The notes beneath the pieces are model-generated. The model did not search any database and was not told the DNA's origin. It saw only the letters and a program-made list of their open reading frames with translations. A DNA stretch of 26,149 bases, taken from a virus. Positions within the stretch are counted from its first letter, which is position 1. Every line of letters starts with the position of its first letter. Below are positions 8,922-23,515 of the stretch, one piece after another. The stretch spans positions 1 to 26,149 of IMG/VR virus record IMGVR_UViG_3300021197_000830; one strand, written 5' to 3'. A program made the position numbers and the translations under genes.

Positions 8922-9887
8922 TTATGTAGTCGTGTAGATCTTCCCAGACGCCGCTTCGTTCAATGACGAAAGCGTGTACTCAGAAATAATCATAGACCTG
9001 TCTGAGTCACCAGTTTTACTTAGTGCTTCAGTTTGGATAGGTCGCAGATAATCAACACTCCAATAGTCCATATCAAGCGCATAAACATTTACCGCAGACA
9101 TGAAACGGTTAGCTACAATTTGTAACTGCCCAAAGTCTGAAATGTAAATGTCAGCTGCACCGACGATTGAACCTGGCGCCACTGGGCCATTAGGCTGCAC
9201 ATCTCGGAATTGAGTTCCGATACCTGCAAACGCTGAGGCTAGCTGCTTGTTTGCGCTTCCGCACATAACAACACCAGGATTACCGCCTGAGTTCCAGACA
9301 GCCGCTAGACATGCCTTTAACTGTACTTCGCTAAAAGCTGCCGCTGTTCCTGGAGTAGGAGCAGTTGCCGGAGCACCAGAAGTTGTCGCAGGTGTAGTAG
9401 TATCTGCACCTGACTGCGCCTGGTTAGTTGATAGCCATGAGCCGATACCTGCTAGTTGTCTAGCTGTACCTGCACCGCCAGCTGTACCGATCTGAAGGCC
9501 GGTTAAAGCAACTTCCATATCACGTTTTAGCTCGCGTCCAGATTTTGAGATCTGATAGCTCATTTCATCAGCTCGGCCCGCCGTTGAAACACTTTGCAAT
9601 GTTCCAGTAACACGAGGCACTTTAGTGCTGATCTGTGTGTAGTTACCTAGACGATTAGTCGCTACCGCTGTATCAGTAGTTGCGTCGTCGCCTTCGATAT
9701 TAGCGTTTAGTGCTGCCGCCGTTAATGAGTCTGTTTGCCACTCATGAAAGGTTGCTGAAGCGCTACCGCGTTTCGCATTGGACAGAAACGGCGTATCCAT
9801 AGGCGATATGTCGTAAATAATGTCCGATAAGTCCTCTCTCTCGCCTACTGCGAGGAAAGTTGTAAAAGTACCCGCTGGTGTAGCCAT
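8922..9887 (-). CDS. Major capsid protein, SU10-like (DUF5309 type)
   Basis: The protein has 321 residues. It begins MATPAGTFTTFLAVGERED and continues LSDIIYDISPMDTPFLSNA, with ATFHEWQTDSLTAA next; this N-terminal pattern is the hallmark of the SU10-type capsid family. Ala/Thr/Gly-rich stretches (about 135-180) are likely the flexible loops of an HK97-type fold, and a C-terminal YWSVDYLRPIQTEALSKTGD segment would be the core beta domain. There is a good GGAG site 9 bases before the ATG at 9887. It is preceded by the scaffold gene by 13 bases, the usual order. It forms the capsid shell. Confidence 0.88.
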   Translation of the reverse strand: MATPAGTFTTFLAVGEREDLSDIIYDISPMDTPFLSNAKRGSASATFHEWQTDSLTAAALNANIEGDDATTDTAVATNRLGNYTQISTKVPRVTGTLQSVSTAGRADEMSYQISKSGRELKRDMEVALTGLQIGTAGGAGTARQLAGIGSWLSTNQAQSGADTTTPATTSGAPATAPTPGTAAAFSEVQLKACLAAVWNSGGNPGVVMCGSANKQLASAFAGIGTQFRDVQPNGPVAPGSIVGAADIYISDFGQLQIVANRFMSAVNVYALDMDYWSVDYLRPIQTEALSKTGDSDRSMIISEYTLSSLNEAASGKIYTTT

Positions 9888-9900
9888 TAGGTTAACTCCT

Positions 9901-10986
9901 CTATTTACTTAGTCGATGTTTGATCAACGCCGCTGCATCTTCGGTTGAGCCTGATTTACGCAAACTCTTTCTTAACGCGCCTTCTGCGGTGACCGCTTGT
10001 TGTGCTTTCGAGCGTTTGGCACCAGGTGTTAAAACCTTAGAACCTAACTTAAGCACTTTCTTTTTAGCTACATCCGTTTTTCTCATAGACTTGTCGTACA
10101 TCATCGCTTTGTGCGCTAACACAATAGTGCGGTGATCGTAGGAGCTGTCTACGTCTTGCTGGCTGTAACCTTGATCGAGTAAATAATTGACTAGCTCGGC
10201 CTGCTCGGCTTGGCGTGTTTCACTATTTTGCCACGATGGTAAAGCTGTCGTTAAAGCGCGATGCTCTCGCTCTATAACTTGGCTTAATTCTTTTTGATGC
10301 TGTTCACTAATAGTCGCTTTGTTTTGCTCGTATGCTTGAGCAGCTTGTTGGCGCATGGTTTGTAATTTGCCATTGCGCTCCTGAAATTCTTGTCGTTTAG
10401 CCGTCCATTCGGTCGGATTGTTGATACGCAAATTGTCCCAATCGATAGACTGAAATTCAGTTTGTAATGTTTGCTGCACCTGGTTCAAAAACATAGCGCC
10501 TTCTTGCGCTTGCCTTTCCATTGCCTCGGCCGCTTGTTGTTGTTGCGACTGTAACTCAGCTTTTAACGCTTCGCTTTCTTGCGCTAATCGTTGCGCACGC
10601 TCGTTGTTCTGAAACGTGTCCTTCCATTCGCCTAAGCTAACTTCTTTTCTCTCGCCATTAGCATCGGTTATTGGAATTGAGACATTATATAAATCAGCTG
10701 TTTCTACGCCTAAATGTTCAGCTAAGTCGCTAATCGAGCTGACTTCTAACGCTTCTTCCTCTACCGCCTCTGCTGTTTCATCACTTGCTTGTGGCAGTTC
10801 TTCGGTTTGCTCCGCTTGTTCTGGTTGCTCTGGTTGCTCAGCTTGTTCTACTGGTTGTTCTGTCTCAACCGCCTCTAGTTGTGGCGCTGTTTCTACCGGC
10901 GCTGCCTCAGCTGGTGCTTCTGCTACCGGCTCTGGCGATAAACTTGCGCTAATACGTTCTTCGATACTTGGTTGCCTCTCAGCCAT
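9901..10986 (-). CDS. Capsid scaffolding protein
   Basis: The protein has 361 residues. The first 90 are extremely acidic and low-complexity (Glu/Gln/Pro/Ala, with repeated EQPEQ-like units). A long helical coiled-coil region follows (about 130-260, rich in Gln and Glu: EALKAELQSQQQQAAEAMER). The C-terminus is basic with many Lys and Arg (KKKVLKLGSKVLTPGAKRSK). An acidic, coiled-coil protein with a basic capsid-binding tail directly before the capsid gene fits a scaffolding protein. It has a GGAG site before the ATG at 10986. No protease motif was seen, so release may be by exit rather than cleavage. Confidence 0.8.
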   Translation of the reverse strand: MAERQPSIEERISASLSPEPVAEAPAEAAPVETAPQLEAVETEQPVEQAEQPEQPEQAEQTEELPQASDETAEAVEEEALEVSSISDLAEHLGVETADLYNVSIPITDANGERKEVSLGEWKDTFQNNERAQRLAQESEALKAELQSQQQQAAEAMERQAQEGAMFLNQVQQTLQTEFQSIDWDNLRINNPTEWTAKRQEFQERNGKLQTMRQQAAQAYEQNKATISEQHQKELSQVIEREHRALTTALPSWQNSETRQAEQAELVNYLLDQGYSQQDVDSSYDHRTIVLAHKAMMYDKSMRKTDVAKKKVLKLGSKVLTPGAKRSKAQQAVTAEGALRKSLRKSGSTEDAAALIKHRLSK

Positions 10987-14900: not shown

Positions 14901-15228
14901 CTAACCATTTAACCGTAATGCCGCCGTCCACTTCTTGCTTTTGCGTTTCTTTCCAGCCCATACGTGCTTTAGACCACCATATAGCGGCTGTTGTATTGCC
15001 GCCGGTGGCTTGTCGGTACAGCGATTCGGCTATCTTTGCGTTAGCTTTAGTCATGCCGACCGATAGCTCGTTCTTAAACTTGTTATACATCGTGGCCTTA
15101 CATACCGCTTCGCCTGTATTAGGATTAATGACCATTTTAGCCATGTCCTCAACAGGGATACCGTAGCCAGCCATCGCTTCAACGCTTTTACGTTGTTCAT
15201 CGGTTGGATCGAATACTTTATTAACCAC
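14887..15228 (-). CDS. Terminase small subunit-like DNA-binding protein
   Basis: The best start is the GTG at 15228, overlapping the methyltransferase stop by 8 bases, giving 113 residues; a longer in-frame start at 15276 would lie inside the methyltransferase. The N-terminus (FDPTDEQRKSVEAMAGYGIP, then VEDMAKMV and ATMYNKFKNEL) is a helix-turn-helix pattern of small terminases, followed by a helical AESLYRQATGGNTTAAIWW segment and a WKETQKQEV tail. It should recognise the packaging site and recruit the large subunit, whose gene overlaps it. Confidence 0.75.
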   Translation of the reverse strand: MVNKVFDPTDEQRKSVEAMAGYGIPVEDMAKMVINPNTGEAVCKATMYNKFKNELSVGMTKANAKIAESLYRQATGGNTTAAIWWSKARMGWKETQKQEVDGGITVKWLDGNN

Positions 15229-16417
15229 GCTCGGCCACCTCGCCTGTAAAATCTTCCCAGCGCTTGACCGCCACATCGACGTAAGCAGGGTTTAGCTCAA
15301 TAGCGTGTGCAACACGTCCTGTCATCTCAGCGGCTATAATTGTTGTTCCGCTACCGCTAAACGGTTCATATACTGCCTGACCAGGCGATGAGTTGTTTTC
15401 AATAGGACGTTTCATGCACTCGACAGGCTTTTGCGTGCTGTGTCCTGTTTCGCTTTTCATTGGCTTGCTAATATCCCAGATCGTTGTTTGCTTGCGACCT
15501 CCAACGTAATGACCTGTCTTTTTGTCTTTTACCGCGTACCAGCAAGGTTCATGTTTGGGATGGTAATCACCACGCCCAATCACCATATTGTTTTTAGCCC
15601 ATATGATCTGTGCGCGTATGTTAAAGCCGTTATCGATTAAGCTATTAGCGACAATATGCGCTTTTTTATCAGCGTGCCACACATACGCCACGTCCCCAGG
15701 GAACAGCGCCCAGGCTTCCGACCAATCAGCTTGATTGTCGTTTGCTACTTCGCCAACAGCAAAAGCACCATAAGATTTCCCATCGGGTCTTTTTGCATTG
15801 TTTCTCCAGCTAGCATCATACTCAACGCCATACGGAGGATCGGTGACCATTAGATGCGGCTCTACGCCGTTTAAGCATTTAGCCACAACATCCGCGTCTG
15901 TACTGTCGCCGCAAACTAAACGATGTCGCCCTAATATCCACACATCACCTAAACAAGCGGTCGGCTCATCAGGAACGTCAGGCACATCATCGGGATCGGT
16001 TAGCCCTTCGTTTGTATCTAAAAACCCTGCCAACTCGCTATCACTAAAGCCCGTCAACGACAGGTCAAACTCTAGCGCGTCCAAGCCAGCCAACTCACCC
16101 TGTAACAGCTCAACGTCCCAACCAGCGTTTAGGCTTAGTTTGTTGTCAGCTAAGATGTACGCTTTACGCTGTACTGGCGTGAGATAACTTAGATCAATAG
16201 TCGGCACGCTTTTAAGCTGTAACTTACGCGCCGCTTGTACTCGACCATGACCAGCAATAATTCCGTTATCCCCATCCACTAGCACTGGGTTAGTAAAACC
16301 AAACTCTTTAATGCTTGCCGCTATCTGCGCAACCTGATCGTCAGAGTGTGTCCTGGCGTTATTGGAATACGGTATTAAATGTTCGACTTTAATCTCTTTT
16401 ATAGCGTCTACTTTCAT
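15221..16417 (-). CDS. ParB-domain fused DNA methyltransferase (adenine/N4-cytosine type)
   Basis: The protein has 398 residues. About residues 8-95 form a ParB/sulfiredoxin-like N domain (IPYSNNARTHSDDQVAQIAA and the GHGR box in IIAGHGRVQAARKL). About 155-398 form the methyltransferase: catalytic DPPY at 193-196 and, later, the SAM-binding FSGSGTT at 353-359. This order (catalytic motif first) is the beta class. The STQKPVE segment is also typical. It methylates DNA on an amino group, N6-adenine or N4-cytosine. No restriction enzyme is nearby, so it probably protects phage DNA or marks packaging sites. It is directly upstream of the terminases, with ATGA overlap to a 9-codon reading frame ahead of it. 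Confidence 0.88.
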   Translation of the reverse strand: MKVDAIKEIKVEHLIPYSNNARTHSDDQVAQIAASIKEFGFTNPVLVDGDNGIIAGHGRVQAARKLQLKSVPTIDLSYLTPVQRKAYILADNKLSLNAGWDVELLQGELAGLDALEFDLSLTGFSDSELAGFLDTNEGLTDPDDVPDVPDEPTACLGDVWILGRHRLVCGDSTDADVVAKCLNGVEPHLMVTDPPYGVEYDASWRNNAKRPDGKSYGAFAVGEVANDNQADWSEAWALFPGDVAYVWHADKKAHIVANSLIDNGFNIRAQIIWAKNNMVIGRGDYHPKHEPCWYAVKDKKTGHYVGGRKQTTIWDISKPMKSETGHSTQKPVECMKRPIENNSSPGQAVYEPFSGSGTTIIAAEMTGRVAHAIELNPAYVDVAVKRWEDFTGEVAERG

Positions 16418-18964: not shown

Positions 18965-20625
18965 TGTTGTTCCTCCATTTGTAAATAAAGCTCGTTTTCT
19001 GTGGCAAACCAAAACCTTGAATAAGGATGATCGTAATTTGTACCGCCTGATAACTCAGTCGCTTGGTACCAGGTTGGATTATCAACGAGCTGATTGTTGT
19101 AACTTGATATATCTGTGCCGTAAGTCATTGCGGCTAATGCGACGTTTTGCACCTGTGAGGTTGTGTAACTCTCGGCCAACTTAGCTACAATTGCCGTTGC
19201 CACTCGTTTAGCGATCTCTTGTTTAGTTGGTTTTGTCTTACTTTTAGGCTGATTTGCTACTTTTTTGGACGCCTGTGGTGCTTTCTTTTCGCTTTCACTA
19301 GGGCTAGATGCTGTTCGTGTGGCCATAGGCGCTTCATTTTCTGGCTCAACTGGCGTATTTTCGACCTCCGGCTGGCTTTCAACTACTGGTTCAGGCTCAC
19401 TTGGCGTAGGCTCAACAGGCTCTATATCAAAACTTTCCACAGTTAATTCAACCTCAACTTCTGCATCAAATGTTGCGATTGGCGCTATTTCAATCTCAGG
19501 CTCTAGCTCCATTGTCGGCATATCAACAGTCGGAACCTCCACTGGCTCACTCACTTGGGCCATAACAGCTTGTGTTGTTATATCTGTTTGATCGTCAAAG
19601 TTCACAATCGATGGTGGCTCAATCTCCACAACCGTTGGCAGTTCAACTACTTCCGGCTCGACTGCTTCGGTGTCAGCAACCGCCTGTACTGCAGCTAATC
19701 GTTCTTCCTCTATTCTTTCTTCCTCCAGACGCAAACGCTCTATTTCTGCTAATCGCGCTTCCTCTAAAGCAACCAACCTCAAGCGTTCAATCTCTGCTAG
19801 GCGTTCTTGCTCTAGCCTTTCAGCTTCCAACCTAGCGGCTTCAATCTCTGCTAGGCGCAATGCCTCGGCTTCTTCCAATGTGGATAACCTCGCCAATCGG
19901 TCGTCTAAAGAGTTAGTAACATCTAAAACGTAATCATCCATTAGCGTATTTTCAATCAGCCGATAGATTTCTGAGCTGATGTATTCAATCTGTGTGTAGG
20001 TACTAATCACAAACGCATCGCTAAATTGCGGCCCCCATAGCCCAGAACCATAGCCATCATCTTTACCTGTAAGAGACATTAGCGCATCAAGCGCTTCATA
20101 AGTGTTTGGCGCAATGTCCTGGCTAAACTCGTAATCTTTTGAGCCGCCATAATCTATGACAAAATTATGCGTGTATTTTTCGACCGATTCATTGTTATTA
20201 AATAACTCCAGGGCAATCGTTAAACTATCCTTACAATCACCATTCGTATCAGCGCACAATGGCAATGACGCATTTGAGCTATGGCTTTTAACTGTAGCTC
20301 CATAATCTAAAGTAAAGCCTGCCTGTATTTCTTCGATTGACATGCTGTCGTTAAGTTTAATTTTGTCAGTATAAAACGTGCCACCTTGATACCCTGTGCA
20401 ATTTGAGCCTGTCACGCAATAACTACGAAAATTTGTCGTCGAGGTCGCATCGCCCGATGTATTCCAAGTTGATATGCCTGGCACCAAGTTTCCTGTTTTG
20501 CCAGCGCTGGTGCTTTGCGTTGTTATTGTCTCGACATTGCAATTAGCCAAACTGGTACAGGTCGCATTGTCATCGGCTAACGCGGCCCCAATAAACAAAT
20601 AAACTAAACATATTAAATACCGCAC
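18952..20625 (-). CDS. Secreted coiled-coil, Pro/Glu-rich protein of unknown function
   Basis: The protein has 557 residues from a GTG at 20625. A signal peptide (about 1-17, YLICLVYLFIGAALA) is followed by a Cys-rich N domain (about 18-215; Cys near 23, 29, 69, 75, 124, 131). A charged helical repeat region (about 235-315, units of LAEIERLRLEEER type) comes next, then a Pro/Glu/Val-rich stretch (about 320-440), a Lys/Ser-rich patch and a short C-terminal domain. The build recalls TonB-like or envelope-spanning linkers. It overlaps the PAPS-reductase-like gene by 13 bases. It may act in the envelope during lysis or superinfection exclusion; no homology-based role can be given. Confidence 0.6.
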   Translation of the reverse strand: MRYLICLVYLFIGAALADDNATCTSLANCNVETITTQSTSAGKTGNLVPGISTWNTSGDATSTTNFRSYCVTGSNCTGYQGGTFYTDKIKLNDSMSIEEIQAGFTLDYGATVKSHSSNASLPLCADTNGDCKDSLTIALELFNNNESVEKYTHNFVIDYGGSKDYEFSQDIAPNTYEALDALMSLTGKDDGYGSGLWGPQFSDAFVISTYTQIEYISSEIYRLIENTLMDDYVLDVTNSLDDRLARLSTLEEAEALRLAEIEAARLEAERLEQERLAEIERLRLVALEEARLAEIERLRLEEERIEEERLAAVQAVADTEAVEPEVVELPTVVEIEPPSIVNFDDQTDITTQAVMAQVSEPVEVPTVDMPTMELEPEIEIAPIATFDAEVEVELTVESFDIEPVEPTPSEPEPVVESQPEVENTPVEPENEAPMATRTASSPSESEKKAPQASKKVANQPKSKTKPTKQEIAKRVATAIVAKLAESYTTSQVQNVALAAMTYGTDISSYNNQLVDNPTWYQATELSGGTNYDHPYSRFWFATENELYLQMEEQQWQK

Positions 20626-21410
20626 ATTCCCTCACATTCGTCTAAAAAAGACAGCTGACCTTGCGATTCTGGAGTAATAAAATCAATTTCATCCAATGGT
20701 TTACCGCTTCTATGTAAAAACGGCGTACCGTTGAGATTATTTTTTTTTCTAATTTCTTTATCAAATTTAATTACGTTTTGCCATTCGTCACTTGGCCCAT
20801 TTTTAATCCGTAACCATTCTTTATCGCTATGAAACGGACAACATAAACAAGCGCTTCTTGGCGGTGACGGATAATTATTTTTTTGCATCCATTCCAGACA
20901 ATGACCGCGAGTTAATTTGTTTTCGATTAAGGGATACACATTTCTTTGCCATTTGTTTGTAAAAGGAATTTTGCATCGCTGAATTTCATCTAAAGAAATC
21001 CCCATCCACATATCAACAACATGATATTTTGGAGCGTGTTGTTTCGGCTTTAGCCCTAAAACATTTTTTCTTACATATTGCTCGATGGGTTTTATTTTAT
21101 AATCAGCAGTACATTGACGTTTTCCTAAACCTATTTCACCACGTTCATTTTTTACAAAATACGGCACGCGATTTTTGTTGCCGGCTAATTCATCGTGATA
21201 TAGATTGCCATGCGTAACTCGCTTTATCGGAAATGGTAATTGTTTTTCTAGCCAATCTAACCATCGATACACTTGCGCTGGCTCATAACCTGTATCAGAA
21301 AATATGGCTACATCAGGCATTGGTTTAATATTACCTTTTGCCGCCATTAAAGCTAAAGCGCTACTTTGCACGCCTGCACCAAGCGATAAAATTGTTTTAA
21401 TCGTAAACAT
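20613..21410 (-). CDS. PAPS reductase-like PP-loop protein
   Basis: The protein has 265 residues and belongs to the adenine nucleotide alpha-hydrolase / PAPS reductase superfamily. It has a modified PP-loop (ILSLGAGVQSSALALM, about 8-22), an IFSDTGYEP segment after it, an RQCTADYKIKP box (98-108) and a CLCC motif (188-191) in SACLCCPFHSDKEW. The Cys pairs could bind a metal or iron-sulfur cluster. Such phage proteins could reduce sulfate, activate a base or transfer sulfur to nucleic acid; the reaction cannot be told here. It is co-transcribed with a methyltransferase gene and overlaps a lipoprotein gene by 14 bases. Confidence 0.8.
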   Translation of the reverse strand: MFTIKTILSLGAGVQSSALALMAAKGNIKPMPDVAIFSDTGYEPAQVYRWLDWLEKQLPFPIKRVTHGNLYHDELAGNKNRVPYFVKNERGEIGLGKRQCTADYKIKPIEQYVRKNVLGLKPKQHAPKYHVVDMWMGISLDEIQRCKIPFTNKWQRNVYPLIENKLTRGHCLEWMQKNNYPSPPRSACLCCPFHSDKEWLRIKNGPSDEWQNVIKFDKEIRKKNNLNGTPFLHRSGKPLDEIDFITPESQGQLSFLDECEGMCGI

Positions 21411-22095: not shown

Positions 22096-23154
22096 TTAAT
22101 CCTCAGTTTTTGTTGTCATTAATTTTGCGTTTAATATTTCCCAAGCTAATGCCGCAGTTTGTGGCACTACCCCATTACCAATCGCCATTAACCTAGAAAT
22201 GCGATCATCGGTATCATCTATTCTTGTCCAGCCAACAGGCAGCCCCATCAATTGCTCGCACCAATCAGGATTTAATTTGCCAGACCGCTTTTCTTTCATT
22301 TTGCTAACTAATGTTTCGCCTCGTTCTCCGTTCCATGTATCTTTCATATCGCTTTTGGTTGGCGTCGGCCAGTTCTTTGCCGCTTTAACTCTCAAACTAT
22401 TGGCCGTTCCAACATGGCTCGTATTCATTTCCCAATCAGTAGGCCCTGCGTGCTTTCCGTCTTGGTGTCTAGGTGTTGGCCAGTTAGACAACTCTTGGTT
22501 CTTCCCATTCATGCTGGTCTTGTCCTGGTCTGGCTGGGAAAGCTCCCCATTCAATGCCATTGCTGTTAAATTCTTCGATCTCTGAGTCTTTTCCTGCCCA
22601 TCTTTCTGTAAAGAATATTTTTGCACTGTCCACGCTTCCGGCGTCGGCCAAGATAAACACTCTTTTTCTTTGATGAGGAGCGCCGACTTCTTCCGCTGAG
22701 AATATTCCCCACGTTGTTCGATAACCCAGTTCTTCCAGATCTGAGATGACTGTGGAGAGTCCCAACGTAATATGTCCTTGCACGTTTTCGAAGAAACATT
22801 GAATAGGTCGTATTGTTCTGATGTGTTCTTTGATGTAGGGCCATAGGTGGCGTGGATCATCTTCCCCCCCCGTCGACCGGCTTGGCTAAACGGTTGGCAG
22901 GGATAGCCTGCAAGTAAGAGATCAACCTTGTCTCGAAAGATCTGTGCTGGGAAGGTTTTAAGATCTGTCCACAAAGGCGCTGAAACCATTTGTCCCGCTT
23001 CCATTTTCTCAAGAGTGAGCTTTTGGACATAGGCTTCGATCTCACAAAAAGCGATGAGGCGATGATCGTATCCAGCAAGCTCAAGTCCTCGCTCGATGCC
23101 ACCATATCCGCTACATAGTGAGATGACAGTGGGTAATTCTTCGGTAATATCCAC
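22096..23154 (-). CDS. DNA cytosine-C5 methyltransferase, reading frame split at a G8 tract
   Basis: A GTG at 23154 opens a 352-codon frame. Motif I (VISLCSGYGGIERGLELAG) and the catalytic motif IV PCQPFS (85-90) are in this frame up to GRRGG (93-97). Just after the run of eight G (22864-22871) the expected sequence continues in the -1 frame: EDDPRHLWPYIKEH, motif VI with ENV (CFFENVQGH) and motif VIII QRKRVFILA, ending at a stop at 22484. The first frame resumes the family pattern downstream: WPTP repeats, QLMGLPVGWT, and motif X GNGVVPQTAALAWEIL to 22096. An intact enzyme needs a -1 step at the G run and a +1 step back before 22484. It may be a phase-variable gene, a programmed-frameshift gene, a decayed gene or a sequencing error. 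Confidence 0.75.
   Translation of the reverse strand: MDITEELPTVISLCSGYGGIERGLELAGYDHRLIAFCEIEAYVQKLTLEKMEAGQMVSAPLWTDLKTFPAQIFRDKVDLLLAGYPCQPFSQAGRRGGKMIHATYGPTSKNTSEQYDLFNVSSKTCKDILRWDSPQSSQIWKNWVIEQRGEYSQRKKSALLIKEKECLSWPTPEAWTVQKYSLQKDGQEKTQRSKNLTAMALNGELSQPDQDKTSMNGKNQELSNWPTPRHQDGKHAGPTDWEMNTSHVGTANSLRVKAAKNWPTPTKSDMKDTWNGERGETLVSKMKEKRSGKLNPDWCEQLMGLPVGWTRIDDTDDRISRLMAIGNGVVPQTAALAWEILNAKLMTTKTED
22864..22871 (-). repeat. Homopolymer run of eight G in the methyltransferase gene
   Basis: The minus strand reads CGA C followed by G8 then AAGATGATCC. In the opening frame this is CGG GGG GGG AAG, which contains a G GGG GGG slippery heptamer; a -1 slip gives GAA GAT GAT CCA (EDDP), the family sequence. 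Adding one G has the same effect, so length change or slippage would both join the frames. Confidence 0.85.
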
Positions 23155-23155
23155 A

Positions 23156-23515
23156 TTACGCCGCCTTTAAAAATCCTTTCAAACACGCTTCGCCCTGACT
23201 TTTTAAGGTATAAAAACGCGTCTGGCTTAACTTAAATTCTTCGATAGTTTTGTCCTTGCCGTTAATATGAAAACTACGAACCACCGTTACAGCCAAACCG
23301 CAGTCGCTTTGAATTAAATTGTTCATGGCTAAATTAATTTTATTAAGGCTAGCTGGTGGGATGACGCCTTTCGGTAGACTGCCGCAAAATTCAGTATCAC
23401 CTGGCGCATGCAAAATACGCCAAATCGCAGTCGAAGATGGATAGCTGCCGGTTTCAGCGTTAGAAAACCATCGCGCCCAATCCTCTAATAATGGCGTCAG
23501 CCAATCATTCTTCAA
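23156..23515 (-). CDS. Late-gene regulator, Q antiterminator-like
   Basis: The TTG at 23515 has a strong GGAGG site 7 bases upstream and overlaps the previous gene; it gives 119 residues. The N-terminus (WLTPLLEDWARWF) and the C-terminal helix-turn-helix-like end (LSQTRFYTLKSQGEACLKGFL) match the pattern of short Q-type antiterminators and sigma-region-4-like late regulators. It is the last gene of the early block, as Q is in lambdoid phages, and it abuts the methyltransferase with 1 base. It should act at a late promoter; the best candidate site is the gap at 18351-18508. Confidence 0.6.
   Translation of the reverse strand: MKNDWLTPLLEDWARWFSNAETGSYPSSTAIWRILHAPGDTEFCGSLPKGVIPPASLNKINLAMNNLIQSDCGLAVTVVRSFHINGKDKTIEEFKLSQTRFYTLKSQGEACLKGFLKAA

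Follow-up and report, generated by a model that had tools for sequence, protein, structure and literature searches.

A probable dual-coded split C5-cytosine DNA methyltransferase of tailed phages with two overlapping start codons

The methyltransferase gene on the minus strand of a 26,149-nucleotide stretch of viral DNA (IMG/VR record IMGVR_UViG_3300021197_000830, positions 1 to 26,149, referred to here as the window) very probably belongs to a large family of dual-coded split C5-cytosine methyltransferases of tailed phages, in which two chains, alpha and beta, are encoded by the same DNA; in the window copy, parts of the two frames are joined at a run of eight G (G8). In the proposed mechanism, alpha would be read from a GTG codon and provide the SAM-binding and catalytic motifs I-VIII, and beta would begin at an ATG that shares a base with this GTG (ATGTG), occupy the +1 frame and provide a region with WPTP repeats, motif IX and, in the window lineage, motif X. 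A ribosome reaching this one site could start either frame, so that the amounts of the two chains would be linked. Both chains would assemble into one enzyme, and motif X could be carried by either of them. In the window the poly-G run has one G less than in relatives, by which the N-terminal part of alpha is joined to the C-terminal part of beta. From sequence we infer dual initiation in the phage, formation of a heterodimer, methylation activity and a role of the WPTP region.

The methyltransferase locus of the window

Positions 22096-23154 (minus strand) contain an open reading frame of 352 amino acids with a GTG start, in which motifs I (CSGYGG), IV (PCQPFS) and X (GNGVVP) are found. The -1 frame 3' of G8 (22484-22864) begins with the residues EDDPRHLW, contains the ENV and GAPHQRKRV motifs and terminates with WEEPRVV* without a motif X. 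The original prediction had placed motifs I, IV and X in one frame and motifs VI (ENV) and VIII (QRKR) in the -1 frame, with the frames changing places exactly at G8 and a G GGG GGG heptamer in the register for a -1 slip into EDDPRHLW; motifs, site of exchange, heptamer register and continuation were all found as described. It had missed the lack of motif X at the end of the -1 frame and the fact that the 0 frame 3' of G8 encodes a conserved protein family of its own.

The start region reads TAATGTG (23152-23158, minus strand), in which the stop codon TAA of the upstream gene (23158-23156), the ATG of beta (23156-23154) and the GTG of alpha (23154-23152) overlap by one base each. The N-terminal part of alpha (22864-23154, minus strand) carries motif I at about 23115-23098 and motif IV at 22902-22885 and extends to the G tract (22864-22871, minus strand), the sole G/C run of at least seven in the window. 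Because of G8, the C-terminal part of alpha (22484-22864, minus strand) is read in a frame shifted by -1 from that of the N-terminal part; here motif VI is found at 22789 and motif VIII at 22684. The Pfam profile PF00145 is matched contiguously by the two pieces, residues 9-97 of the 0 frame corresponding to profile positions 2-82 (E 2.2e-16) and the -1 frame to positions 84-161 (E 1.4e-12), and the latter piece also matches phrog_363 (E 2.2e-23). The original assignment to the phage C5-methyltransferases is right, and motifs I, IV, VI and VIII are present in order, in two frames in the window and continuously in its relatives. Among about 190 loci fetched, the window is the only one in which PCQ and motif VIII lie in different frames.

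The N-terminal part of beta (MWILPKNYPLSSHYVADMV..., 22857-23156, minus strand) meets a stop just past G8 in the window and runs unbroken into the C-terminal part in the relatives. The C-terminal part of beta (22096-22863, minus strand) is fused in frame to the N-terminal part of alpha in the window. It contains WPTP repeats at 22650, 22482 and 22371, the motif IX region LNPDWCEQLMGLPVGWT at 22275-22225 and motif X at 22179-22162, such that motifs IX and X of the window are both located in the beta frame. The original prediction was also right in that the openness of the two frames exceeds chance. Residues 99-342 of the 352-amino-acid frame match phrog_1008, annotated as 'DNA methyltransferase' (E 4.5e-24), and the open 0 frame after G8 is therefore not due to chance. 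Both frames are broken at G8 in the deposited copy; simple decay is ruled out, both halves being still open and conserved.

Two further genes on the minus strand of the window deserve mention. What appears to be a second methyltransferase of this phage is encoded at 15221-16417; the 398-residue protein matches families of DNA methyltransferases as well as of ParB-like nucleases (phrog_498, E 3.2e-143; phrog_620). An auxiliary metabolic gene of the phosphoadenosine phosphosulfate reductase family is located at 20613-21410 (phrog_424, E 7.4e-49).

Conservation of both frames across the phage family

Conservation of the two frames, of their overlapping starts and of the motif partition is apparent at the sequence level, as is the difference between G8 and G9 described below. 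Relatives were gathered by their alpha sequence only and made non-redundant, and the expected numbers of stop codons were derived from shuffling synonymous codons. Between PCQ and motif VIII the +1 frame contains no stops where 51.6 are expected (48 non-redundant genes), and between motif I and PCQ there are none against 48.0 expected (46 non-redundant genes). The +2 frame, which served as internal control, behaves as expected in both segments (166 versus 165.4 and 211 versus 203.7, respectively). Such shuffles ignore relatedness, yet the +2 frame, with the same relatedness, has no stop deficit. Furthermore, the third alpha codon position accounts for a fraction of 0.48-0.56 of the differences between close pairs within the gene, compared with 0.67 in flanking open reading frames. 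The amino acid identity of the beta frame likewise exceeds that of synonymous shuffles; this measure is not decisive alone, because shared ancestry raises the +2 frame as well, and we therefore relied on the stop test with its +2 control and on the codon position shares relative to flanking open reading frames. All 55 beta proteins match phrog_1008. The window's family thus shows the feature of an alternative frame within the gene for the first polypeptide that encodes a second one.

Several observations were made on individual relatives. In L006 the 5' two-thirds are divergent and the 3' part, from NGKNQESSNW, reads as L004 in all three frames, a mosaic which points to recombination inside a dual-coded gene. 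The two ends of the contig IMGVR_UViG_3300035162_002567 (L005 and L007) each hold a piece of the methyltransferase gene; the pieces overlap but differ in sequence and are therefore not a clean terminal repeat. A C11 run is present inside the dual-coded gene of L172 (at about 2827-2837), 317 nucleotides after PCQ, and is a candidate phase-variable tract. A more distant subfamily comprises two loci in Acinetobacter genomes (L102 and L104) and one in phage ABMM1 (L001); here too the +1 frame is open over nearly the whole gene, and it begins with MSWLFSQALVAEYS.

The shared start site

In this family, long conserved frames begin at both of two overlapping start codons. Of 82 genes, 73 have the start codon of beta (ATG, with the exception of six GTG and two TTG) exactly two nucleotides 5' of the alpha GTG, giving ATGTGG, GTGTGG or TTGTGG, and in the remaining nine the two starts are 4-11 nucleotides apart, as in ATGACATGG. 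This variant and ATGGACACATGG retain both starts. Residues W2 and P5 of beta are invariant (73/73), and at position 4 only L, I or V occurs. The alpha residues overlapping them vary, with T, N, I, S, A, R, H, D or C at position 3, T, P, S or A at position 4 and mostly K, E or Q at position 5. A scan with a 20-nucleotide pattern that covers the start site and leaves the gene body aside gave 81 matches, of which 60 are methyltransferase genes, and both frames are long in 56 of the 57 complete cases. Shine-Dalgarno matches of at least four nucleotides precede the site in only 49 of 73 relatives. One contig (L211) contains two ATGTGG start-like sites (9586-9605 and 10178-10197), one of which opens a long alpha frame and a beta frame of just 24 codons.

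Only a handful of bacterial cases are described in which two genes on one strand overlap over a long distance and share their start site (PMC9841429). In E. coli reporters, AUGUG and GUGUG sites can initiate translation of either frame, and rnpA-rpmH of Thermus is the only earlier bacterial case according to the same authors (Kohl et al., PMC9841429).

Partition of motifs between alpha and beta

Motif IX was not found in alpha in any of 88 non-redundant phage genes. Motif X is located in alpha in 76 of these genes, in beta in 12 and in both in none; three genes that were first scored as having it in neither chain carry GNGVTP, GNGVLP or GNGCQP in alpha. In most of the 12 genes with motif X in beta, alpha stops soon after motif VIII. 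Mapped onto the alpha tree, whose deep branches are weak, the location of motif X has changed at least four times and seven times by parsimony. This distribution of motifs IX and X is as would be expected if alpha and beta together form one enzyme.

The C-terminus of beta from relatives aligns with the region of motifs IX and X of single-chain methyltransferases (hhalign 97.8%, E 6.8e-13). In single-chain Streptomyces enzymes (L096, L098 and L100), motif VIII, xPTP repeats and motifs IX and X follow each other in one frame, and from its position in these homologues the WPTP region may be regarded as target-recognition-like. AlphaFold yields a mean pLDDT of 54.7 for beta alone and of 46.9 for the Streptomyces homologue L096; neither model is good enough for use, and no fold supports a function in target recognition.

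Searches of Pfam and NCBIfam gave no real match for beta, and the beta profile, run against PDB sequences, produced matches at chance level only. The beta region of the window found no match in phage records by tblastn; with other beta sequences, phage C75C1 and Synechococcus and Rhodobacter phages were matched. In the records of C75C1 and ABMM1, alpha is annotated and beta is not. With beta lacking a Pfam or NCBIfam match and records listing alpha alone, annotations of phage methyltransferases would commonly miss half of the enzyme.

The G tract and alternative explanations

It is extremely improbable that only alpha is made and that codon bias or the conservation of alpha keeps the second frame open. 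Conservation of the +2 frame is indeed raised as well, from shared ancestry, but this reading would have to account for the absence of all of the approximately 100 expected stops in the +1 frame only, for the conserved start, W2 and P5 of beta, for the location of motifs IX and X in beta and for a beta frame that stays open where alpha ends early, as in most of the 12 genes with motif X in beta. Close relatives of the window are found on two IMG/VR contigs, one with L004 and the other with L005 and L007 at its opposite ends. All three copies have nine G where the window has eight (22864-22871), and a pattern scan of IMG/VR for the tract returned, besides the window, these same two contigs only. 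Alpha is unbroken through motif VIII to WEEPRV, and the +1 frame of beta, which opens ahead of the alpha start, has no stop up to motif X, for L005 and L007 as far as the pieces reach, since L005 starts inside the gene and L007 stops at the contig edge. Because three relatives have G9, the window run is a shortening by one base, which joins the N-terminal part of alpha to the C-terminal part of beta.

With a single sequence having G8, a homopolymer indel, by assembly error or by a recent slip mutation, is its most likely origin; a phase switch is possible. We consider it fairly probable that the indel or slip was a one-off event, that the functional gene of the phage has nine G and two intact frames and that the run has no regulatory role, an account which explains the G8 of the window and is compatible with dual coding. 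It agrees with G9 and intact alpha and beta frames in the relatives as far as they reach, with the still stop-free C-terminal part of alpha and N-terminal part of beta in the window, and with the provenance of the window as a virus record from a contig collection. It sits less well with an independent lineage (L037 and L039) whose G9 lies at almost the same site, a few bases away at most, two of only five G/C runs of at least nine in 437 kb of related loci being located at this place in the methyltransferase gene. This coincidence keeps phase variation by slipped-strand mispairing in consideration, in which G9 (alpha and beta intact) would be the on state and G8 (the fusion of alpha N-terminus and beta C-terminus) the off state, and tract lengths of 8 and 9 do occur in different contigs. 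Such a switch is nonetheless rather unlikely, as a single off copy was observed, a long G run at this place is absent from most homologues, both L037 and L039 have nine G, and the Gly/Arg-rich sequence makes G-rich codons likely at the run.

It is very unlikely that alpha is made from the 352-residue frame by slippage at G8, either of RNA polymerase or of the ribosome in programmed -1 frameshifting at G GGG GGG. The heptamer is in the right register and one slip would restore both frames, but the slippery site is not conserved, most homologues lack the G tract, no significant stimulatory RNA structure was detected 3' of G8 (z 1.04 and -1.42), and the G9 relatives require no slip. The slipped product would also still be devoid of motifs IX and X and would thus not be a complete single-chain enzyme, as alpha stops at WEEPRVV* and both motifs lie in beta. 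The idea of a single phase-variable or frameshift-controlled enzyme put forward in the original prediction therefore survives in part: a phase-variable tract is possible in view of G9 in L037 and L039, but frameshift control is weak and both frames are coding in all relatives. An extended version of dual coding, in which a near-coextensive two-chain enzyme is started at AUGUG in a ratio set by start-codon competition and a reversible poly-G switch yields a third, hybrid protein of alpha N-terminus and beta C-terminus, appears unlikely to us.

Comparison with known systems

A family present in many phage contigs appears to co-encode two complementary chains over nearly the whole gene with starts overlapping by one base. 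In such a simple enzyme, direct tests would become possible of how start codons compete, how subunit stoichiometry is set and how a sequence evolves under double constraint, and the movement of motif X between the chains would provide a natural series of domain swaps. Literature searches for overlapping phage methyltransferase genes found none. Split C5-methyltransferases and a frame nested in such a gene are already known, the latter also as an annotated internal gene of Paenibacillus phage Diva; coextensive overlap from an AUGUG start and a mobile motif X are new as far as our searches show.

The beta chain of M.EcoHK31I is an internal product of 176 amino acids, for which an alternative frame within alpha is reportedly used as well. 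In BsuMI, YdiO (alpha) carries motifs I-VIII and YdiP (beta) motifs IX-X, as in M.AquI. Two types of partition are established for split C5-methyltransferases, namely motifs I-VIII and X on one chain with IX separate in M.EcoHK31I, and motifs I-VIII on alpha with IX-X on beta in M.AquI (PMC3404938). The former, with motif IX on a small separate polypeptide (PMC3404938), recurs in 76 of 88 relatives. Unlike in M.EcoHK31I, where beta is internal, the beta frame described here comprises about 350 codons, is coextensive with alpha and has an overlapping start, and in the window lineage motif X resides on beta instead of on the first chain. The partition of M.AquI (PMC3404938) is that of the window lineage and was found in the window, L004, L005, L118 and others, 12 non-redundant genes altogether. 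In contrast to M.AquI, the beta frame here overlaps the whole alpha gene and the start site is shared.

Methyltransferases of Paenibacillus larvae phages (DIVA_50, 'g49 internal gene') likewise contain a +1-frame protein inside a C5-methyltransferase, with W-TP repeats and LNPDWVECLMG, but in phage Diva the beta frame opens only inside alpha, without the shared ATGTG start of the window family. With rnpA-rpmH of Thermus and the AUGUG and GUGUG sites of E. coli, on the other hand, the family has in common one initiation site with two start codons for two frames (PMC9841429). Whereas Thermus rpmH is nested in rnpA and the alternative open reading frames of E. coli are short, the site in the phage family would serve two long chains of one predicted enzyme.
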